Positions 1-63,640 of a stretch of 64,000 bases of DNA are shown one piece after another (the first letter of the stretch is position 1; every line of letters begins with the position of its first letter). A model generated the notes under the pieces. The model searched no databases. It was not told where the DNA came from and worked only from the letters and a program-made list of their open reading frames with translations. The stretch lies in NCBI RefSeq assembly GCF_029633865.1, contig NC_079219.1, positions 55,659,182-55,723,181 of the forward strand, in the 5' to 3' direction. This stretch comes from Lampris incognitus. Taxonomy: Eukaryota; Chordata; Actinopteri; Lampriformes; Lampridae. Made by a program: the position numbers and the translations under genes.

Positions 1-56
1 GGCTAAAGGGTCAGACCCGTTAGCTAGGGGCTAACGTGTCTTATTAGTAGTTTACA
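1..56 (-). repeat. partial LTR of the TRIM-like family, cut by window edge
   Basis: Read on the minus strand, this begins TGTAAACTACTAATAAG at position 56 and runs through the ...CTAACGGGTCTGACCC... block to the window edge. It matches the first 56 bases of the repeats at 54451, 54680 and 60695. Only the head is present, so whether it is a solo LTR or part of a full element cannot be told. Confidence 0.75.
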
Positions 57-430: not shown

Positions 431-21966
<21,536 letters not shown>

Positions 21967-37878: not shown

Positions 37879-38660
37879 GTGAGTGTGTGTGTATTGTGAG
37901 TCTGTCCCCGTGCTTTTAGGTTTTCGACGCGGCTCTGCGAGAGGTTCCTGCGTGGGCTTTGCTCGGCTCGGCTCGGCCGCGCTTGGGCGGGCGGTGGTCC
38001 GCGGCTAGCGAGTCCGTGTGTGCGGCTTTCTCCGCCCGGCCGGCCGGCCGGCCGACGGACGGACGGCGCATCGTACTTGGCGGAGCGCCAGCGTTATTTA
38101 AAGCGCCGCCGCCGCGCAGCGCTGACGCGACCCCCGGCGTCGCCGTTGCCTCGTTTTACACCGATTTGCCGTTTTCGCTGGCGGGCTTTTAGCTGCTGCT
38201 CGTAGGCCACTTGTCAACAAACATGGCAACTTAGTAGGGATGGGCCCCCCCCCCCCATGGCCCCTCCCGTGTGCGCGGCTTTCCTAGCCCTCGGGCTGCA
38301 CCGCAGAGACTAGAGAACACCGGGAGTGCTTATTGGATTAGTCATGACCCCGGCCGCCGCCGCCGCCGATGCCCCGGATGTAGGTTTCTTGCGCCTCCAC
38401 ATCGTCGTGGGCGAACACCCCTCCCATGCATGCAGCGCACGGACCCACCAAGTCCCCAATTACGTAACCAAGATCGAGACACGCGAGAGTCCGGATCTGG
38501 TTCAGTGGGACGGAGAGAGAACTGAAGTAGGTGTAAATGCCAGGAGGAGAATTAATAGCAAGTCTATTAATAGGCGGCTCCCCGTTTGACCTGTCCTTGG
38601 AGGATAGGGCAACGCGGTAATAGAAGCCGGGCGGACACCAGAGCGTTTTGTGTCTGTTGC
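37879..38660. other. CpG-rich start of PDP1 intron 1
   Basis: A CpG island continues into the intron (repeated GCCGGCCGGCC near 38040 and GCCGCCGCCGCC near 38353). No second first exon could be proven, though human PDP1 uses alternative first exons. Confidence 0.45.
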
Positions 38661-38662
38661 AC

Positions 38663-40417
38663 TGTGGTCTGGGATCTAGGTTAACACACCGGTCTGGGGT
38701 CTAGGTCAGCACTCTGGTCTGGAGTCTGGGTTAACACTCTGGTCTGGGGTCTGGGTTAACACTCTGGTCTGGAGTCTGGGTTAACACTCTGGTCTGGAGT
38801 CTGGGTTAACACTCTGGTCTGGAGTCTGGGTTAACACTCTGGTCTGGAGTCTGGGTTAACACTCTGGTCTGGAGTCTGGGTTAACACTCTGGTCTGGAGT
38901 CTGGGTTAACACTCTGGTCTGGAGTCTAGGCCAGCACTCTGGTCTGGAGTCTGGGTTAACACTCCGGTCTGGAGTCTGGGTTAACACTATGGTCTGGAGT
39001 CTAGGTCAGCACTCTGGTCTGGAGTCTGGGTTAACACACCGGTCTGGAGTCTGGGTTAACACTCTGGTCTGGATTCTGGGTTAACACCCTGGTCTGGAGT
39101 TTGGGTTAACACTCTTGTCTGGAGTCTAGGCCAGCACTCTGGTCTGGAGTCTGGGTTAACACTCCGGTCTGGAGTCTGGGTTAACACCCTGCTCTGGAGT
39201 CTGGGTTAACACTCTGGTCTGGAGTCTAGGTCAGCACGCTGGTCTGGAGTCTGGGTTAACACCCTGGTCTGGAGTCTGGGTTAACACTCCGGTCTGGAGT
39301 CTGGGTTAACACACCGGTCTGGAGTCTGGGTTAACACTCTGGTCTGGAGTCTGGGTTAACACTCTGGTCTGGAGTCTTGGTTAACACTCCGGTCTGGGTT
39401 AACACTCCAGTCTGGAGTCTTGGTTAACACTCCAGTCTGGAGTCTGGGTTAACATCCTGGTCTGGAGTCTGGGTTAACACTCTGGTCTGGAGTCTAGGTC
39501 AGCACTCTGGTCTGGAGTCTGGGTTAACATGCCGGTCTGGAGTCTGGGTTAACACCCTGGTCTGGAGTCTGGGTTAACACTCTGGTCTGGAGTCTAGGTC
39601 AGCACTCTGGTCTGGAGTCTGGGTTAACACTCTGGTCTGGAGTCTGGGTTAACACCCTGGTCTGGAGTCTAGGTCAGCACTCTGGTCTGGAGTCTAGGTC
39701 AGCACGCTGGTCTGGAGTCTGGGTTAACACCCTGGTCTGGAGTCTGGGTTAACACTCTGGTCTGGAGTCTAGGCCAGCACTCTGGTCTGGAGTCTGGGTT
39801 AACACCCTGGTCTGGAGTCTAGGTCAGCATTCTGGTCTGGAGTCTGGGTTAACACTCTGGTCTGGAGTCTGGGTTAACACTCTGGTCTGGAGTCTGGGTT
39901 AACATCTTGGTCTGGAGTCTTGGTTAACACTCTGGTCCGGAGTCTAGGTCAGCACGCTGGTCTGGAGTCTGGATTAACACTCTGGTCTGGAGTCTGGGTT
40001 AACACCCTGGTCTGGAGTCTGGGTTAACACTCTGGTCTGGAGTCTAGGTCAGCACTCTGGTCTGGAGTCTGGGTTAACACTCCGGTCTGGAGTCTGGGTT
40101 AACACACCAGTCTGGAGTCTGGGTTAACACTCCGGTCTGGAGTCTGGGTTAACACCCTGATCTGGAGTCTGGGTTAACACTCTGGTCTGGAGTCTAGGTC
40201 AGCACTCTGGTCTGGAGTCTGGGTTAACACTCCGGTCTGGAGTCTGGGTTAACACTCTGGCTGGAGTCTGGGTTAACACACCGATCTGGAGTCGGGGTTA
40301 ACACTCCGGTCTGGAGTCTAGGTCAGCACTCTGGTCTGGAGTCTGGGTTAACACTCTGGTCTGGAATCTGGGTTAACACACCGGTCTGGACTCTGGAGTC
40401 TAGGGTAACACGCCCCT
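38663..40417. repeat. 25-bp minisatellite, about 70 copies, PDP1 intron 1
   Basis: Two unit types of 25 bp are interspersed: GGTCTGGAGTCTGGGTTAAC+ACTCT and GGTCTGGAGTCTAGGTCAGC+ACTCT. The last five bases vary (ACTCT, ACCCT, ACTCC, ACACC). Most major units contain a GTTAAC palindrome. A few shortened units occur near 39390-39420 and 40260. Confidence 0.95.
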
Positions 40418-53729: not shown

Positions 53730-54450
53730 CTACAGTAAAACTCAAGGTCATGGGAGTTTGTGGTTCCCAGGAACTGTGACAACTCCACAGTGGTGGCTGT
53801 TGAACCATTGATATTTTCCGTGTGTGTGTGTGTGGGTCAGTGTTGTTGATCTGCAGCCATGATTTGCACAACAGGCCAGGATTGTATATGTTGCGTGTCT
53901 ACATTTCCGATAACCATATTTAGGTCCTAGTAAACTGTTTTGAGGAAGGTGGAAACTTGTGTGCCGTGATGTGTGTGCAGGAAGTGGTGTTCCCGCTCCT
54001 CGCTAGCGCCTCGTTTTTATTGCCGTCGTGTGACTCACATGTCCAGAGGAACTGGACGGCGGTGTGTTTGGTAAACCGGGTTATGGGCAACTCAAACATC
54101 ATTTATTGAGATAACTGGGGGGAAAAAACGTTGTCTCGGCGCAGCACTTTAGGCCCTGCTATGCCTCATTTCCTGCTGTGCTTGGATTTTGTTCCAGGGC
54201 CACTTCCCGAATGCAAACTGTGTGACATTGAACCGGGAGGGAGGGGGGTGGAGGGAGGGGGGCACTTTTACCCTCTTGTTCTCATGTCCCCCGCTAAATG
54301 CCCCCATATTGCAACACTTACGGTAAAAATACGTTTCGGTCATTCCCGTCCACTCTAAGAAATTAGACATAAATCAGGAAGAATATTCACATTTTAATCC
54401 AATCAAAGGGGATATTGCAACACAAATCAAAAGCGTTGTATCCTGCATAG

Positions 54451-54814
54451 TGTAAACTACTAATAAGGCACGTTAGCCCCTAGCTAACGGGTCTGACCCT
54501 TTAGCCGAGCGGTTAGTGACGTCGCCTTGTGGCGCAGTACACCCCGTATCGAATCCCGCACCGGGCAAGAAAATAACCGGTTACATTGGCGGGATCCGGA
54601 AGTGTGCAGATCCTCAGAAGTCTCTTCGGAGTGCGGGAATAACAAAGCGCGAGGGCGCGCTTCCGGGGAGGGTGACGACTGTAAACTACTAATAAGACAC
54701 GTTAGCCCCTAGCTAACGGGTCTGATCCTTTAGCCGAGCGGTTAGTGATGACGCCTTGTGGTGCAGTACACCCCGTATCGAATCCCGCACCGGGCAAGAA
54801 AATAACCGGTTACA
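54451..54814 (+). mobile_element. TRIM-like miniature LTR retrotransposon, looks whole, non-coding
   Basis: Two 135-bp direct repeats (54451-54585 and 54680-54814) start TGTAAAC and end GGTTACA. They flank a 94-bp interior. ATAG lies on both outer sides (54447-54450 and 54815-54818) as a 4-bp target duplication. The interior begins T-TGGCGGGATCC, placed like a primer-binding site, and ends with purine-rich GGGGAGGGTGACGAC, placed like a polypurine tract. Each repeat carries a tRNA-like stretch: box A TAGCCGAGCGGTTAG and box-B-like TATCGAATCCCGC. The repeats differ at about 5 of 135 positions, so the insertion is fairly recent. It has no coding capacity and would depend on another element. Strand is assigned from the order of interior signals and is tentative. 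Two independent SINE insertions are the alternative. Confidence 0.6.
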
Positions 54815-54859
54815 ATAGCAACCAATAAAATGACGTGTATTTGCGTTGTTTGTCTGTTT

Positions 54860-55194: not shown

Positions 55195-56213
55195 TGTAAT
55201 ATCTGATGGCGTCAGACCTCTGGAGCTTGTTCAGAAAGCTGCATGCAGCTCGTCTGGTGTTCAACCGCCCTAAGTTCTCCCACACAACCCCCCTTCTCAT
55301 GTCCCTACACTGGCTCCCAGTAGCTGCTCGCATCCGGTTTAAGACTCTGGTGCTAGCCTACAGGGCAGTGACAGGGACAGCTCCTTCCTATCTCCAGGCC
55401 AGGGTCAAGCCCTACAGCCCCACCCGACCACTTCGCTCTGCCGCCTCGGGACGCCTGGTTGCCCCGTCGCTCAGAGGCCCCTGCTGCCGGTGGACCCGGT
55501 CCCGGCTCTCCTCTGTCCTGGCCCCACAGTGGTGGAATGAACTCCCCATCTGATGTCAGGAAAGCCAAGTCGCTGCCCATCTTTCAGCGCAGGTTGAAAA
55601 CTCACCTCTTCAAGAACTACTACCCTGTTACTTGTTCTTAAATTTATTTCTAGTTTTCCCCCTTATCCCACCCGATTAACCCAATGGCATATGGCCGGAA
55701 CTCTTGTCGAATAACTCCCCTGGCTCACGTTTCCACAGGAAGGAGATAGTCGTTACACCAGCTTTCTACAAACTCGTGTCGGCTGCTCTCGCTATTTCAC
55801 ACGCTGAAGCCTCGGATGGATTGCATCACCTTCAGGCCGCGAGGGAGACGTAGGGAAAACGCTTTCAGTTGCTTGGCTGCAGGTGCCCGGGTGGGCCAGA
55901 GGGGTCGCTGGAGAACGACGAGTCCCTGAACACTACACCGATCTACACCCACTATCCCTCGGGTAAGGGTGGCCTAATGAATGCTTTACTCCGTGGACGC
56001 GCTGGCCGTGACCGGTTACGGCGTGTCTGAGATACGAACCTCCCAGCCACGTGACGAGCGGGTTGCTCTTAGCACTTATTGTATTCACTCATTTAAAAAA
56101 CAAAAAATCTCTTTCTTGCGCTTTTACTTTAGCACTGGTTTTGTTCTTAGATGCTTGTTTAGATGCACTTATGACCTCCGATGACTAGTAGTTCTCCTGA
56201 TTTCCTGCGTTAA
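55195..56213 (+). mobile_element. L2-type LINE 3' end, split by the Gypsy element
   Basis: The plus frame reads LFRKLHAARLVFNRPKFSHT, SLHWLPVAARIRFKTLVLAY, TGTAPSYLQARVKPYSP and LAPQWWNELPI, then in a shifted frame FQRRLKTHLFKNYY: the conserved C-terminus of fish L2 reverse transcriptases. A 3' UTR follows with an unclassified inset (about 55690-56060), then TGCACTTATG. The last piece of the LINE (GCACTTATTGTAAGGCGCTT, TTGGATAAATGGCTGTAATG) resumes at 60372. 5' truncated, with one frameshift. Confidence 0.8.
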
Positions 56214-59200
56214 TGTTGTATCTCTACGTTACTACTGAATTAAGCGGTTTATACAGAATTTATTCTCAATAACTTGGACGACACATCGAATTTGCGGTCT
56301 CTTGCTGGGCGCGCTTTATTAGAGAACCCACTGGCACGAGCGTACCCACAATGCCCTTCCCACCCTGAGGGGCGTGGTACCCATAGACATGACATCCCCC
56401 CTTTTCTTGGCATTAAACTCTTATTAACCAAAAAGTACAGCTGATGATTATACTCACATCAATGCAGCTATTGCATATTAAACCATATTCCAGTAATTAT
56501 CAAAACATCATTTGGCACCTCGTAAGTTAACTGTTATAACATCAGATAACTTTTTTTTCTTTTAAGAAATCAAATCACTGTGTCTTCAAATTATTACCTG
56601 TAAATTAGAAATCAGTGTATCCTTACAGTATTTTCAAATCAGAAACATTATAGAAACTCTTTTTTCCCCAAACACATTAACTAGCGAGAATCACTCATCA
56701 CTTTAAAACCTAGTCAGACAGTCAGTCTACTGGGTGTTCGCTTGATCCTTTGCAGACTGTCTGGCACGCCTGCCTGTATTTGTATGTCAGAGTCCTGCTC
56801 GGTTTGTGAACTCTGAGTATCAGTGGCGTGTGTGTGTTCTTCTGTTACCCTCGGCTTCCTGTATTTCCCCCTTTTCTTGAAATGTCCCTTGTTTCAGTCT
56901 ATTTCCTTTGTATCTCTTAACGAAGGTGGTGTTTCTCGAATATCGTGCTCCTGTTGGTGATTCCACCACCACTTTGTTTCCGGTCCTGCTGATGGTCTTG
57001 TGCGGTGTCGCGTTGAATGTGGTGGAGAACTTGTCAGTTTTGTCCTGTCTCAGGAGAACAGTATCACCGACACTGACCTCTGACTGCTGTGCTCCTCTGA
57101 GTGTGTCTGCATACAGCTTACTCTTAGCCTTTTGCTCAGTCCAGCTAGCTTTCCTCTCATCTTTCGGTTGAAAAGCAATTCAGCAGGGCTTTTACCTGTT
57201 GATGGGTGGAGGATGCTCTTGTAGATTGTCACATATTTTCTCAGTTCTTTCTTCCAATCCAGTCCCTCTGATTGAGCAATCCGAGTTCTCTTCAGCAGTG
57301 ACGCGTTCTGACGCTCAACTTCTCCGTTGGCCTGAGCGTATTTCGGTGTGGTTTTGATGTGTGTGATGCCGTTTTCCTCGCAGTACAGTCTAAATTGCTC
57401 TGTTCTGAACTGAGGTCCATTGTCAGACTTGATTGTGACTGGCAGTCCATGTCGACTGAATATTGACTCCAGACTGTCTATGAACCTCTCTGATGTGGTG
57501 GTAGTCATGACGTCATATTCCTAATACTGGCTGAAATAGTCTACTACCACTAAAATGGAGTGCTTAGACGGGAGAGGCCCCAGTAGGTCAACGGCGACAT
57601 CCCGCCAGGGTCCATCAGGTAGCGGTGTGGGTCTCAGCGGTTCAGGTGGGTCAGGTCTAGCCACTATCTGACATCCGTGGCAGGCTTTACAGTGTCTCTC
57701 CGCGGCCCTATCCATGCCAGGCCACCAGACTTTTGTCCTGAGACGCTGCTTTGTTCCCACGATTCCCAGATGTCCTTCATGGGCTAGTGCAAGTGCCCGC
57801 ATCCGCAAGGCCTGTAGCAACACTCTGCGTGCGCCTCTCAGAACAAGATATCCCACTGTGCATAGCTCACTTGCAATGACAGCATACGGTTTGCACTTTT
57901 CAAAGTGTCCAGTAGCTATGGCTTCGCATACCTCATGAAGCTCTGGGTCAGCGGCAGATGCTCCCTCCACTTCTCGGGTGGTGAGTGCTCTTGGCGTTGC
58001 GTTCACCGCCACAAACCTCACGTACTCATCAGCTCCATGCTCATGCTTGGCCTGTTTCACACTGCTCGACAGGAGTCTTGATAGCGGGTCAGCGATGTTG
58101 TTTTTCCCTGCTATGTGGACAATTTGAATTCGTAGGGCTGTAGCCTAAGAACCCATCGTTCTATCCGCACACAGGGCTTGGAATGGGGACCATAGATCAC
58201 TTCTAATGGCTTATGATCTGTGACTAGGTCAAACTGTCTCCCATATAGGTATGGATGAAGTCTCTCACAGGCCCAAACTAGACCTAGTGCCTCTCGCTCT
58301 GTCTGCGAGTATCTCTGTTCACAGTCTGTCAGGCTACGGCTGACGTAGCACACAGGAACGTTGATTCCTTTCTGGTTCTGCACCAGGACTGCACCTAATC
58401 CTACAGGGCTTGCATCTGCTATTACCTGTGTCGGCGCGTCCTTGTCGAAATAAGCCAGGGTGGTTGCTCTGGCGATCGCTGCTTTCAGCGCACTGAATGC
58501 TTGCTTCTGTTATGGTCCGAATGTGAATGGTGTGTCCTTCCTTGTCAGGCACCTCAGTGGCTCTGACATGGTTACAAACTGAGGGATAAATCTGCTGCTT
58601 TATCCAACTAGCCCAAGGAAGCTACGCACCTCCGTGGCGCTCTCTGGCTCCCGTGCTTCTGTCACAGATTGCACCCTCTCCTCTGTTGGACCGATGCCCA
58701 TCATTTCCGGGTTTTGGGACGATCACGACCGGATTCACCCACGGGGTGGGCCCATTCACTGGTTCAATAATGTCCAAATCCTCAAATTCTTTTATTCTGG
58801 ACTCTACTACCCCCCGGAGGTTAAATGGAATTCGCCTGAGTGGGCTACTGGTTTGACCTCTGGGTTACTGTGTATACTGACCTGTCTCGTTTTCAGTTCC
58901 CCAACTCCACTGAATACTTCAGGCTACTGCTGCTGGAGTGTTTGCTTCATCTCTGTGACGGCAGCAATGTCGGCACCTATTCTCAGGACGCCCAGTCGCA
59001 TCGCTGTTTCTTTTCCCAGCGGTGGTTCACCTTTTCCCCTGATTACAATGAATACAGCACATTCAGTTTTGTTACCTATTGACACATCACATGTAAATGC
59101 ACCCTTGACAGTTAATGGCTCACTGGAACAATATGAGTACAATTTCCTCTCTGTCTTAGGAATGACACTTAATGCGTTCTGCTTTCAGTTTTCCCCCACA

Positions 59201-60371
59201 CATTTTCTCCCATCACATTGCTTGTTGCTCCAGAGTCAATGAGCATATTCATATTCACTCCCCCCAGCGTTTTTGATCTCGGCCAATGTGATCAGAGTTT
59301 CCACATCTATAGCACTTTCCGTCATTTTTATTGTCTCTGTTCGGTTTACCTTTTTGTTCCGTGCTTTCCCTTTATGGTCAACTCTGTGCACAGTCTCTGG
59401 GGTAGCTCCGGTCGATGTGCACGACATGTTAGCCATTTGCTCCTCGATGCTCTCACAACGAGCAGCTAGTATGTCCAGCGTTACTGCTAGCGTCAGCCCA
59501 CGGCCCTCTTCCAGCAGCTTCCTGCGCACATACTCCCATGTTCCCTTACTTAGAATGGCATCCCTTATCTGGTTATCAGACTCTCCCCCATGTCCACAGT
59601 CTCTCACGGCCTGTCTCAGGCGTGTAGCAAATTGCTGCACTGTCTCACCTGGGTTCTGGTGCGTTTTTTGAAATGCCTGCCTTGCTAGCGCCGTGTTGAC
59701 TTGGGGCACGACGTATGCGTTCAAAGCCTCGACCGCCTTCTTGTAGTCCGTTGCATCACCGGTGTCCGGTAAAGTTGAAGAAACGTCCTGAACGTCTGGT
59801 CCAGCTGTAGTAATAGTGCACGTCTCCTTTGCTTTGTAGCTTCAGGTGAGTCGTCAGCCAAGATGAGCCCTTTTCCGTCAGCATATAGCTCGAACGATGT
59901 TAGCCCCACCGCTTCCATCTGGAACCCTTGGTTTTTTTCCCCACCCGCATTCCGGGCACTCTGCCTCTGATTGGCTAGTACTCGTTGCCTCCGTTGGTTG
60001 GGTTGGTTAAGGTTAGGGATAGGGCTAGCCAATCAGAGATAGAGTAGGGGCGGGTCTTCCCGGAATCCAGGTGGGAAAAATAATAACGCTACCGTGGCTG
60101 GCGACATTTTGAATCCCGGATCTCTCCATACCAACTAGCTAAACTCGACTCTTTTAACTACTTGATGTATGTTAATCCTCGTCGCCAATGTTGTCTCTCT
60201 ACCTTACTACTGAATTAAGCGGTTTATACCGAATTTAATCCCAATAACTCGGACGACACATCGAATTCGCGGTCTCTTGCCGGGCGCGCTTTATGAGAGA
60301 ACGAACTGGCACGAGCGTACCCACAATGCCCTTTTCCACCCGGAGGGGGCGTGGCAACCATAGACATGACA
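56214..60371 (-). mobile_element. Ty3/Gypsy-type LTR retrotransposon fossil, both LTRs present, broken inside
   Basis: LTRs at 56214-56394 and 60189-60371 (about 182 bp) begin TGTCATGTCTATGG and end in GACAACA/TACAACA on the minus strand. GTTAA flanks both sides as a 5-bp target duplication, so the ends are complete. On the minus strand come a gag-like region (about 59236-60032), reverse transcriptase remnants (about 58450-59200), RNase H (about 58111-58383), and an integrase with zinc-binding and core domains (about 57050-58060), the Gypsy gene order. The coding part is broken by many changes (at least half a dozen) and is shorter than a full element. The LTRs differ at roughly 15 sites, so it is not a recent arrival. 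It lies inside the 3' UTR of an L2 LINE. Confidence 0.85.
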
Positions 60372-60694: not shown

Positions 60695-60841
60695 TGTAAA
60701 CTACTAATAAGACACGTTAGTCCCTAGCTAACGAGTCCGACCCTTTAGCCGAGCGGTTAGCGATGTCGCCTTGTGGTGCAGTACACCCCGTATCGAATCC
60801 CGCACCGAATCCCGCACCGGGCAAGAAAATAACCGGTTACA
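60695..60841 (+). repeat. solo LTR of the TRIM-like family
   Basis: TGTAAACTACTAATAAGACA through GGTTACA, as in 54451-54585, but 147 bp long because the 12-bp block CGAATCCCGCAC in the box B region is duplicated. Flanks GACT and GAAT are at best an imperfect target duplication. Confidence 0.75.
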
Positions 60842-61494: not shown

Positions 61495-63365
61495 CAAGAA
61501 CACATATATCCAAACTAACATACATATCCAAACTAACACACATATCCAAACTAACACATATATCCAAACTAACATACATATCCAAACTAACACACATATC
61601 CAAACTAACACACATATCCAAACTAACATATATATCCAAACTAACATATATATCCAAACTAACACATATATCCAAACTAACATACATATCCAAACTAACA
61701 CACATATCCAAACTAACATATATATCCAAACTATCACACATATCCAAACTAACACATATATCCAAACTAACACACATATCCAAACTAACATATATATCCA
61801 AACTAACATATATATCCAAACTATCACACATATCCAAACTAACACAAATATCCAAACTAACATATATATCCAAACTAACATATATATCCAAACTAACACA
61901 TATATCCAAACTAACACATATATCCAAACTAACACATATATCCAAACTAACACATATATCCAAACTAACACATATATCCAAACTAACACACATATCCAAA
62001 CTAACACATATATCCAAACTAACACACATATCCAAACTAACACACATATCCAAACTAACACATATATCCAAACTAACATATATATCCAAACTAACACATA
62101 TATCCAAACTAACATATATATCCAAACTAACACACATATCCAAACTAACATATATATCTAAACTAACACATATATTCAAACTAACAACATATATCCAAAC
62201 TAACATATATATCCAAACTAACACATATATCCAAACTAACATATATATCCAAACTAACACACATATCCAAACTAACACACATATCCAAACTAACACATAT
62301 ATCCAAACTAACATATATATCCAAACTAACACATATATCCAAACAAACATATATATCCAAACTAACACACATATCCAAACTAACATATATATCTAAACTA
62401 ACACATATATTCAAACTAACAACATATATCCAAACTAACATATATATCCAAACTAACACATATATCCAAACTAACATATATATCCAAACTAACACATATA
62501 TCCAAACTAACATATATATCCAAACTAACACACATATCCAAACTAACACATATATCCAAACTAACACACATATCCAAACTAACACACATATCCAAACTAA
62601 CACATATATCCAAACTAACATATATATCCAAACTAACACATATATCCAAACTAACATATATATCCAAACTAACACACATATCCAAACTAACATATATATC
62701 TAAACTAACACATATATTCAAACTAACAACATATATCCAAACTAACATATATATCCAAACTAACACATATATCCAAACTAACATATATATCCAAACTAAC
62801 ACATATATCCAAACTAACATATATATCCAAACTAACACATATATCCAAACTAACATATATATCAAACTAACATATATATCCAAACTAACATATATATCCA
62901 AACTAACATATATATCCAAACTAACATATATATCCAAACTAACACACATATCCAAACTAACATATATATCCGAACTAACATATATATCCAAGCTAACATA
63001 TATATCCAAACTAACACACATATCCAAACTAACATATATATCCGAACTAACACATATATCCAAACTAACACATATATCCAAACTAACACATATATCCAAA
63101 CTAACATATATCCAAACTAACACATATATCCAAACTAACATATATATCCAAACTAACACACATATCCAAACTAACACATATATCCAAACTAACATATATA
63201 ACTAAACTAACATATATATCAAACTAACATATATATCAAACTAACATATATATCCAAACTAACACACATATCCAAACTAACACACATATCCAAACTAACA
63301 CATATATCCAAACTAACACACATATCTAAACTAACACATATAATTAAATAACACATATAACTAAA
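61495..63365. repeat. 18-bp minisatellite array, about 104 copies
   Basis: Unit ATCCAAACTAACACATAT with the variants CACAT, CATAT and ACATAT before ATCC. Because 18 is divisible by three, every frame stays open or closed as a whole, giving long repeat open frames (up to 322 codons on the minus strand) that are not genes. A variant block containing ATTCAAACTAACAACATAT recurs at about 62173, 62409 and 62715, showing higher-order duplication. Confidence 0.95.
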
Positions 63366-63640
63366 CTAAAAATAAAAACAAAAATAAAAATAAATCACTG
63401 TCCAGGAGAACGAACACCAGCCAGGATGACTGCCAGAACTGCCGGTCTGCATGGGCTAGCAGTTAGCTTAGCCTGCCTCACTTCCGCCATCTGTCAGATC
63501 GCTCTCGGTGTTTCCTCTTCCGGCACAGCCCCGGTCAGGGTCGCGGTCCCTGGGCCCACAGGACGCAGCAGACCAGGATCCCTCACTTGTGACCACGCGG
63601 TCGTTGCAGACATGGAAGGGGTCGAGTGATGACAGCAACT
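63366..63640 (-). repeat. dispersed repeat, right part, after the minisatellite
   Basis: AAATAAAAATAAATCACTGTCC, then AGCAGTTAGCTTAGCCTGCC, GCTCTCGGTGTTTCCTCTTC and GGTCGCGGTCCCTGGGCCCA look like the body of the repeat whose 3' end lies at 61378-61494. The 18-bp array would have expanded inside it. The link between the two parts is inferred. Confidence 0.4.

Follow-up and report, generated by a model that had tools for sequence, protein, structure and literature searches.

The closest described systems are the Helenus elements (TRIMp3), TRIMs with tRNA-like LTRs that are described from fish and further animal groups, from fungi and from one plant (Kojima 2024, PMC10886601; all statements on Helenus refer to the accessible part of that text). 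Helenus is defined by the tRNA-derived sequence of its LTRs, the GGTTC word of box B being termed conserved, not defining (PMC10886601). The features described include 4-bp duplications in animals, tRNA-Leu among the vertebrate primers, solo LTRs and tandem arrays, and the fish listed are coelacanth, two Acipenseriformes and Ostariophysi (PMC10886601). One of these elements, zebrafish LTR-11_DR, has 5,575 LTRs, 2,618 interiors and tandem arrays (PMC10886601). Gypsy helpers of animal Helenus were inferred from primer-site similarity, no hybrids being reported in the accessible part of the text, and Pol III transcription of Helenus is called unvalidated by the same paper (PMC10886601). The helper of the plant TRIM Cassandra is given there as not known (PMC10886601).

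The locus studied here belongs to the genome of Lampris incognitus and lies in a stretch of 64,000 nucleotides that was analysed as a whole and is referred to as the window. As far as Helenus is described in the accessible text, the element in the window resembles it in having box A and box B in the LTRs, a primer site that fits tRNA-Leu, a purine tract, a 4-bp duplication, solo LTRs and tandem arrays, and differs from it in that box B of the window family lacks GGTTC. The family shares with LTR-11_DR the status of a fish Helenus, thousands of LTRs and tandem arrays, and may perhaps be its close kin. In the accessible description of Cassandra (PMC7215508), a Pol III promoter lies within TRIM LTRs, as the putative one of the window family does, and there are long tandem arrays; it is a plant element, however, and carries 5S rRNA sequence in the LTRs instead of the tRNA-like boxes of the window family. 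Like tRNA-derived SINEs, the window family has box A and box B, short length and many copies, but unlike them it has LTRs, a primer site, 4-bp duplications of the integrase type and no variable tail. The first-pass annotation of this DNA had suggested that a tRNA-like equivalent of Cassandra in a fish would be a new kind of LTR/Pol III hybrid; this claim to novelty falls with the description of Helenus in 2024. With high confidence we interpret the element as a Helenus-type miniature LTR retrotransposon that is non-autonomous and is copied and integrated by a Gypsy helper, with strands switching at the common primer site.

The coordinates of the element and of other repeats of the family are collected in Table 1. 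The LTR–interior–LTR unit (positions 54451–54814 of the window, 364 bp) has no coding capacity, and its total length is below 1 kb. The layout proposed at first pass, namely two 135-bp repeats with TG...CA ends, a 94-bp middle and ATAG borders, was confirmed in the sequence, as was the purine-rich end of the interior. The two repeats differ at five positions with no gaps, their termini read TGTAAA...GTTACA, and ATAG borders the unit on both outer sides. The TGG word that had been taken for a primer site does belong to one, but is only its stump. In the complete copy L010, TTGGTGGCAGCGGTGGGATCC follows the LTR directly and the interior is 103 bp long, whereas the window interior is 9 bp short at the primer site. 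Judging by this loss in its sequence, the window copy is probably a dead element. The flanks of the solo LTR found further along the window are GACT and GAAT, with three of four bases matching.

Table 1. Features of the miniature LTR element and other copies of its repeat in the window.
Feature	Position	Strand	Basis
Left target site duplication, ATAG	54447..54450	.	sequence
Left LTR, 135 bp, TGTAAA...GTTACA	54451..54585	+	repeat comparison; thousands of family copies
Box A of left LTR, TAGCCGAGCGG	54502..54512	+	right-LTR score carried over at identical offset
Box B of left LTR, GTATCGAATCC, 2 mismatches	54546..54556	+	identical offset to right LTR
Non-coding interior, 94 bp	54586..54679	+	between the LTRs
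tRNA-Leu primer site remnant, 9 bp shorter than L010 copy	54586..54597	+	L010 comparison
Purine-rich tract preceding right LTR, GGGGAGGGTGACGAC	54665..54679	+	sequence
Right LTR	54680..54814	+	repeat comparison
Boxes of right LTR (A; B)	54731..54741; 54775..54785	+	motif scoring
Right target site duplication, ATAG	54815..54818	.	sequence
Solo LTR, same family, 147 bp, with 12-bp internal duplication	60695..60841	+	
Another repeat copy, first 56 bp, cut by window edge	1..56 (read 56..1)	-	

The assembly containing the window (1.48 Gb, 537 contigs) was searched for further copies. The 364-bp query gave 45 matches, with 40 of 1,854 candidates scored; 44 of these matches span at least 361 positions, 43 of them being 93–96% identical and the remaining one (100%) being the window itself. 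As they read in the right LTR, the initial 26 bp of the repeat have 4,898 exact genomic copies (0 for the reversed control), and the junction of LTR, primer site and interior of the TRIM is found at 2,550 places (at most 3 mismatches); both numbers are lower bounds, as exact or near-exact words were counted. Hence the genome search with the repeat that had been proposed at first pass yields thousands of copies with a common interior. For the comparison of complete and single copies, also proposed there, 67 elements were taken in the order of their positions on contig C1: 27 are complete, 27 are solo LTRs and 13 are truncated, tandem or hybrid. Of the 100 places listed first, 80 fall within these elements; the other 20 are 18 that were not read and two within L041, which was used elsewhere. 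Solo copies may outnumber complete elements, because two repeats raise the chance of a complete element to be picked. The median divergence between the repeats of one element is 3.7% (48 elements), and the window copy is similar (5 of 135). An array of four repeats (L013) has TTAG at both sides.

Target duplications were counted in two sets. In the first one, the 4-bp duplication is perfect in 25 of 38 complete elements, matches at 3 of 4 bases in nine, at 2 of 4 in three and at none in one, and flanks swapped between elements give 2.3% perfect matches as a control. This set omits elements with a cut part and L032, a duplicate of L005; it includes the tandem elements L013 and L016, as well as L023 and L039, whose identical flanks probably represent a single duplicated site. 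In the position-ordered sample, where 13 of the 67 elements stand outside both counts, perfect duplications border 14 of the 27 complete elements and 13 of the 27 solo copies (control 2.3%), and at least three of four flank bases match in 21 and 25 of them, respectively (control 19–21%). The first-pass annotation had left the duplication at 4–5 bp; the length is 4 bp, since none of the 38 complete elements has a 5-bp flank match. Among 28 perfect sites, the second base is T in 23 and the third is A in 21, that is, NTAN is preferred. Insertion of the TRIM family is of the integrase type.

All 27 single copies extend to the LTR end (GTTACA in 20, variants in seven), and a variable 3' tail of the SINE type is absent from all of them. 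In 25, the matching flank bases, at least three of four, stand right at the LTR end. The single copies are solo LTRs and not SINEs, because their ends and 4-bp duplications are the same as those of complete copies. The explanation offered at first pass for SINE-like single copies without an A-rich tail holds accordingly, and so does its preference for a TRIM over a pair of SINEs, given the common interior, the same ends and the 4-bp duplications. The existence of single copies with tRNA-like boxes would fit two adjacent SINE-like insertions at the window locus; however, the LTR–interior–LTR unit stands in thousands of places, the 4-bp duplications surround the whole unit, and the single copies run tailless to the LTR end. 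Two SINE insertions are ruled out by the common ends, the common interior and these duplications, and we assign them practically no probability. For annotation this means that many tailless SINE-like single copies in the Lampris incognitus genome are solo LTRs.

Box A (TAGCCGAGCGG) matches the consensus at 11 of 11 positions and box B (GTATCGAATCC) at 9 of 11; the two are spaced by 33 bp. Box B is degenerate throughout the family: with 59 occurrences, ACCCCGTATCGAATCC is its commonest stretch, the commonest forms have GTATC, the other common forms listed retain TATC or GATC, and the GGTTC word is missing from the window's family. GGTTCG is present in box B of all eight aligned sister LTRs (at least two related subfamilies, 134–158 bp). 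Doubtful, yet the most serious of the competing accounts, is that Pol II transcribes the TRIM and that the match to box A and box B is a functionless remnant. The degeneracy of box B and the lack of a match to tRNA models would agree with this, as would the absence of a sense-strand terminator: TTTT occurs on the sense strand of only two of 62 elements, so that in the other 60 a Pol III transcript would need to end in flanking DNA. It is opposed by the rarity of an equally good box pair among dinucleotide shuffles (6 of 2000) and by the spacing, the best pair being 31–33 bp apart in 9 of the 10 LTRs compared and elsewhere in the tenth. Per LTR, 1 to 16 of 2000 shuffles were equally good, with the exception of the sister LTR L022 (147 of 2000). 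Compared with the sister subfamilies, the LTR has an identity of 0.86 at positions 41–51, 0.77 at 52–62 and 0.78 at 13–24; the value is 0.61 for the box B stretch, and 0.37–0.44 at the far ends and at 87–96. Conservation of the LTR is not limited to the boxes, because positions 13–24 score higher than the box B stretch. Hence, of the tRNA-like Pol III promoter claimed at first pass, box A stands intact, whereas box B is degenerate and the resemblance to tRNA goes unmatched by any model; a putative Pol III promoter in the LTR is supported by motifs.

The tRNA finder proposed for checking this claim recognised nothing in the repeats, and neither did Rfam. ARAGORN predicted no tRNA in the window or in 11 loci with sister subfamilies. 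Rfam gave no match in the window at the gathering level and none for 54480–54585 at E up to 10; at the same E, L082 has 6 matches and L108 has 14, with no tRNA among them. A plain tRNA gene is ruled out by these results. Permissive ARAGORN settings (introns allowed, lowered threshold) gave 173 predictions in 64 kb, which were taken as noise. The box A region has no matches in the viral contigs searched, and folding is unremarkable (z of −1.2, −1.4 and −0.9).

The primer site TGGTGGCAGCGGTGGGAT, taken from a related copy and not from the window, is complementary over 18 nt to a tRNA-Leu-like 3' end including CCA. The word GGTTCGAATCCCACCGCTGCCA has 7 exact genomic places. One of them, on contig C65, has an exact tRNA-Leu 5' word at the right distance and on the right strand, and the spacing of these two exact pattern matches suggests an intact host tRNA-Leu-like gene there. 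In none of the five other places read did ARAGORN find a tRNA gene. CCA follows the tRNA 3' end in three of these five (L161, L162, L164), and in two (L162, L164) it is in turn followed by ATGTAAC, which is complementary to the LTR end. An LTR end with a primer site prolonged into the tRNA was found at five places (at most 2 mismatches), which fits a tRNA-Leu primer that would sometimes be copied beyond 18 nt. L162, L163 and L164 are genomic 3' parts of tRNA-Leu, linked in two of them (L162 and L164) by CCA to the LTR-end complement, and may be fossil primed cDNA. We note in passing that the tRNA-like part of L163 and L164 starts close to where the anticodon loop ends, adjacent to a methylated position (m1G37).

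In L005, L088 and L110 an unrelated left LTR stands ahead of the TRIM interior. It is about 254 bp long, contains TATAAG and AATAAA, and is repetitive itself (40 matches at 96–100%, with 40 of 527 candidates scored). A complete element with such LTRs, helper A, was found at C2:118179139-118184621. It has a GAAG/GAAG duplication, a primer site of the TRIM type and a purine tract, its LTRs differ at two of 255 columns, and the domain order is RVT_1, RT_RNaseH, rve (reverse transcriptase, RNase H, integrase), as in Ty3/Gypsy. The helper pieces scanned (seven frames, three of them without any family) gave no gag domain. The helper and the TRIM agree in starting with TGTAA, in the final 8 bp of the LTR, in the primer site and in the 4-bp duplication, and a stretch of about 27 bp that covers LTR end and primer site is common to both. 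In the end pieces compared, nothing longer in the helper was found to match the TRIM interior or LTR, and the interiors differ past the primer site.

The junction of helper LTR, primer site and TRIM interior occurs at 273 places (at most 3 mismatches), 77 of them exact, against 0 in the control. Such forward hybrids make up 273 of 2,823, or about 10%, of the junctions leading into the TRIM interior. The reverse junction, in which the TRIM LTR leads into helper interior type B, was found at 10 places (at most 3 mismatches), six of which are near a listed forward junction (five at 238–239 bp, one at 188 bp). Ordinary junctions of the helper LTR with helper interior type B number 72, one of them being also among the 10 reverse ones. 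Of the 77 exact forward junctions, the 18 listed next after L110 were sampled, and all 18 have the order helper LTR, TRIM interior, TRIM LTR, several with one part shortened. Flanks were compared in nine complete hybrids that end after one TRIM LTR, L110 and L088 included. Perfect 4-bp duplications border seven (CAAA, ATAT, CTAG, TATA, GTAG, TTAT, CTAA), and the other two match at 3 of 4 (L149) and 2 of 4 bases (L088, which adjoins an inverted helper fragment). The control is 2.2%; it still contains L142, which was removed from the count of hybrids as its TRIM LTR is followed by a primer site. Some hybrid sites are AT-rich, which makes chance flank matches likelier than average. In L137/L138 (contig C3, about 7 kb, two ends read) a TRIM unit lies between the helper left LTR and the helper interior, with ATAT on both sides. 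The hybrids were inserted as units; therefore, hybrid DNA existed prior to insertion.

The hybrids could also be ascribed to recombination of integrated copies at the common LTR tip and primer site, in which case they would say nothing about co-packaging and another element would move the TRIM. The common stretch of about 27 bp offers room for this, the TRIM family does undergo recombination, as its solo LTRs and tandem arrays show, and L088 lacks matching flanks. Recombination across sites, however, is expected to leave unlike flanks, contrary to the perfect duplications of seven of the nine complete hybrids and to ATAT on both sides of L137/L138, and we regard this explanation as very improbable. 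On the minus strand of L089 (about 2150–2450), two interiors with differing primer sites are separated by a further LTR variant, and hybrids may form between TRIM subfamilies too.

We consider it fairly likely that the tie between this Helenus element and its Gypsy helper consists solely of the primer site and the tips of the LTRs, and that roughly one in ten interior junctions was finished by helper strong-stop DNA, i.e. by second strand transfer in trans. Under the preferred reading of a Gypsy-served TRIM, its RNA would probably start at the box A/box B promoter of the left LTR and would be packaged into particles made by the Gypsy element. Host tRNA-Leu would then prime reverse transcription, and the helper integrase would insert the product with a 4-bp duplication. 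By the simplest route, a hybrid would arise within one particle through annealing of helper plus-strand strong-stop DNA to the TRIM minus strand at its primer site. If so, hybrids with a Pol II-type left LTR are a genome-wide record of two retroelements in one particle. For miniature LTR elements with Pol III-type promoters, which are a known group, the helpers in animals have so far been inferred from primer-site similarity, and hybrid insertions with duplications point to one. The hybrids suggest, in addition, that one system of reverse transcription and integration can serve elements whose LTRs are unrelated, and they render the helper question directly testable. Among publications on TRIM hybrids or co-packaging, judged by title, none was on point; hybrids together with a named Gypsy helper were not found in print.

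Another retroelement, with the LTR end TTTATTACA and the same tRNA-Leu primer site, accounts for 13 of 21 places examined (L112, L113, L115–L117 and L125–L132; six on contig C25). As seen by eye in L112 and L132, it has the primer site alone in common with the TRIM, and it is a possible second helper. These 13 places, and the different primer site of the sister subfamilies, could mean that another retroelement with the primer site of the TRIM serves as the main helper, the named Gypsy being an occasional partner. We find this unlikely, given that hybrids with the named helper account for about 10% of the junctions into the TRIM interior.

Related TRIM subfamilies were seen in L006 (about 3190–3346), L022, L057, L059, L062, L066, L069, L082 and L108, with LTRs of 134–158 bp. 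Where their interiors were seen (L022, L057, L082, L108), the primer site resembles TGGTGTCAGAAGTGGGAT and, we assume, fits another tRNA-Leu. The window itself contains, on the minus strand at 56212–60333, a broken Gypsy-type element whose 147-bp repeats are 93% alike and in which remnants of gag and integrase are left; it was rejected as the helper, as its primer site reads TTGGCGACGAGGAT. A long open frame on the plus strand (499–1371) has no Pfam match and, we assume, resembles the first exon of TMEM245. Long tandem arrays lie at 61499–63369 and 38660–40396, with periods of 18 and 25 bp.
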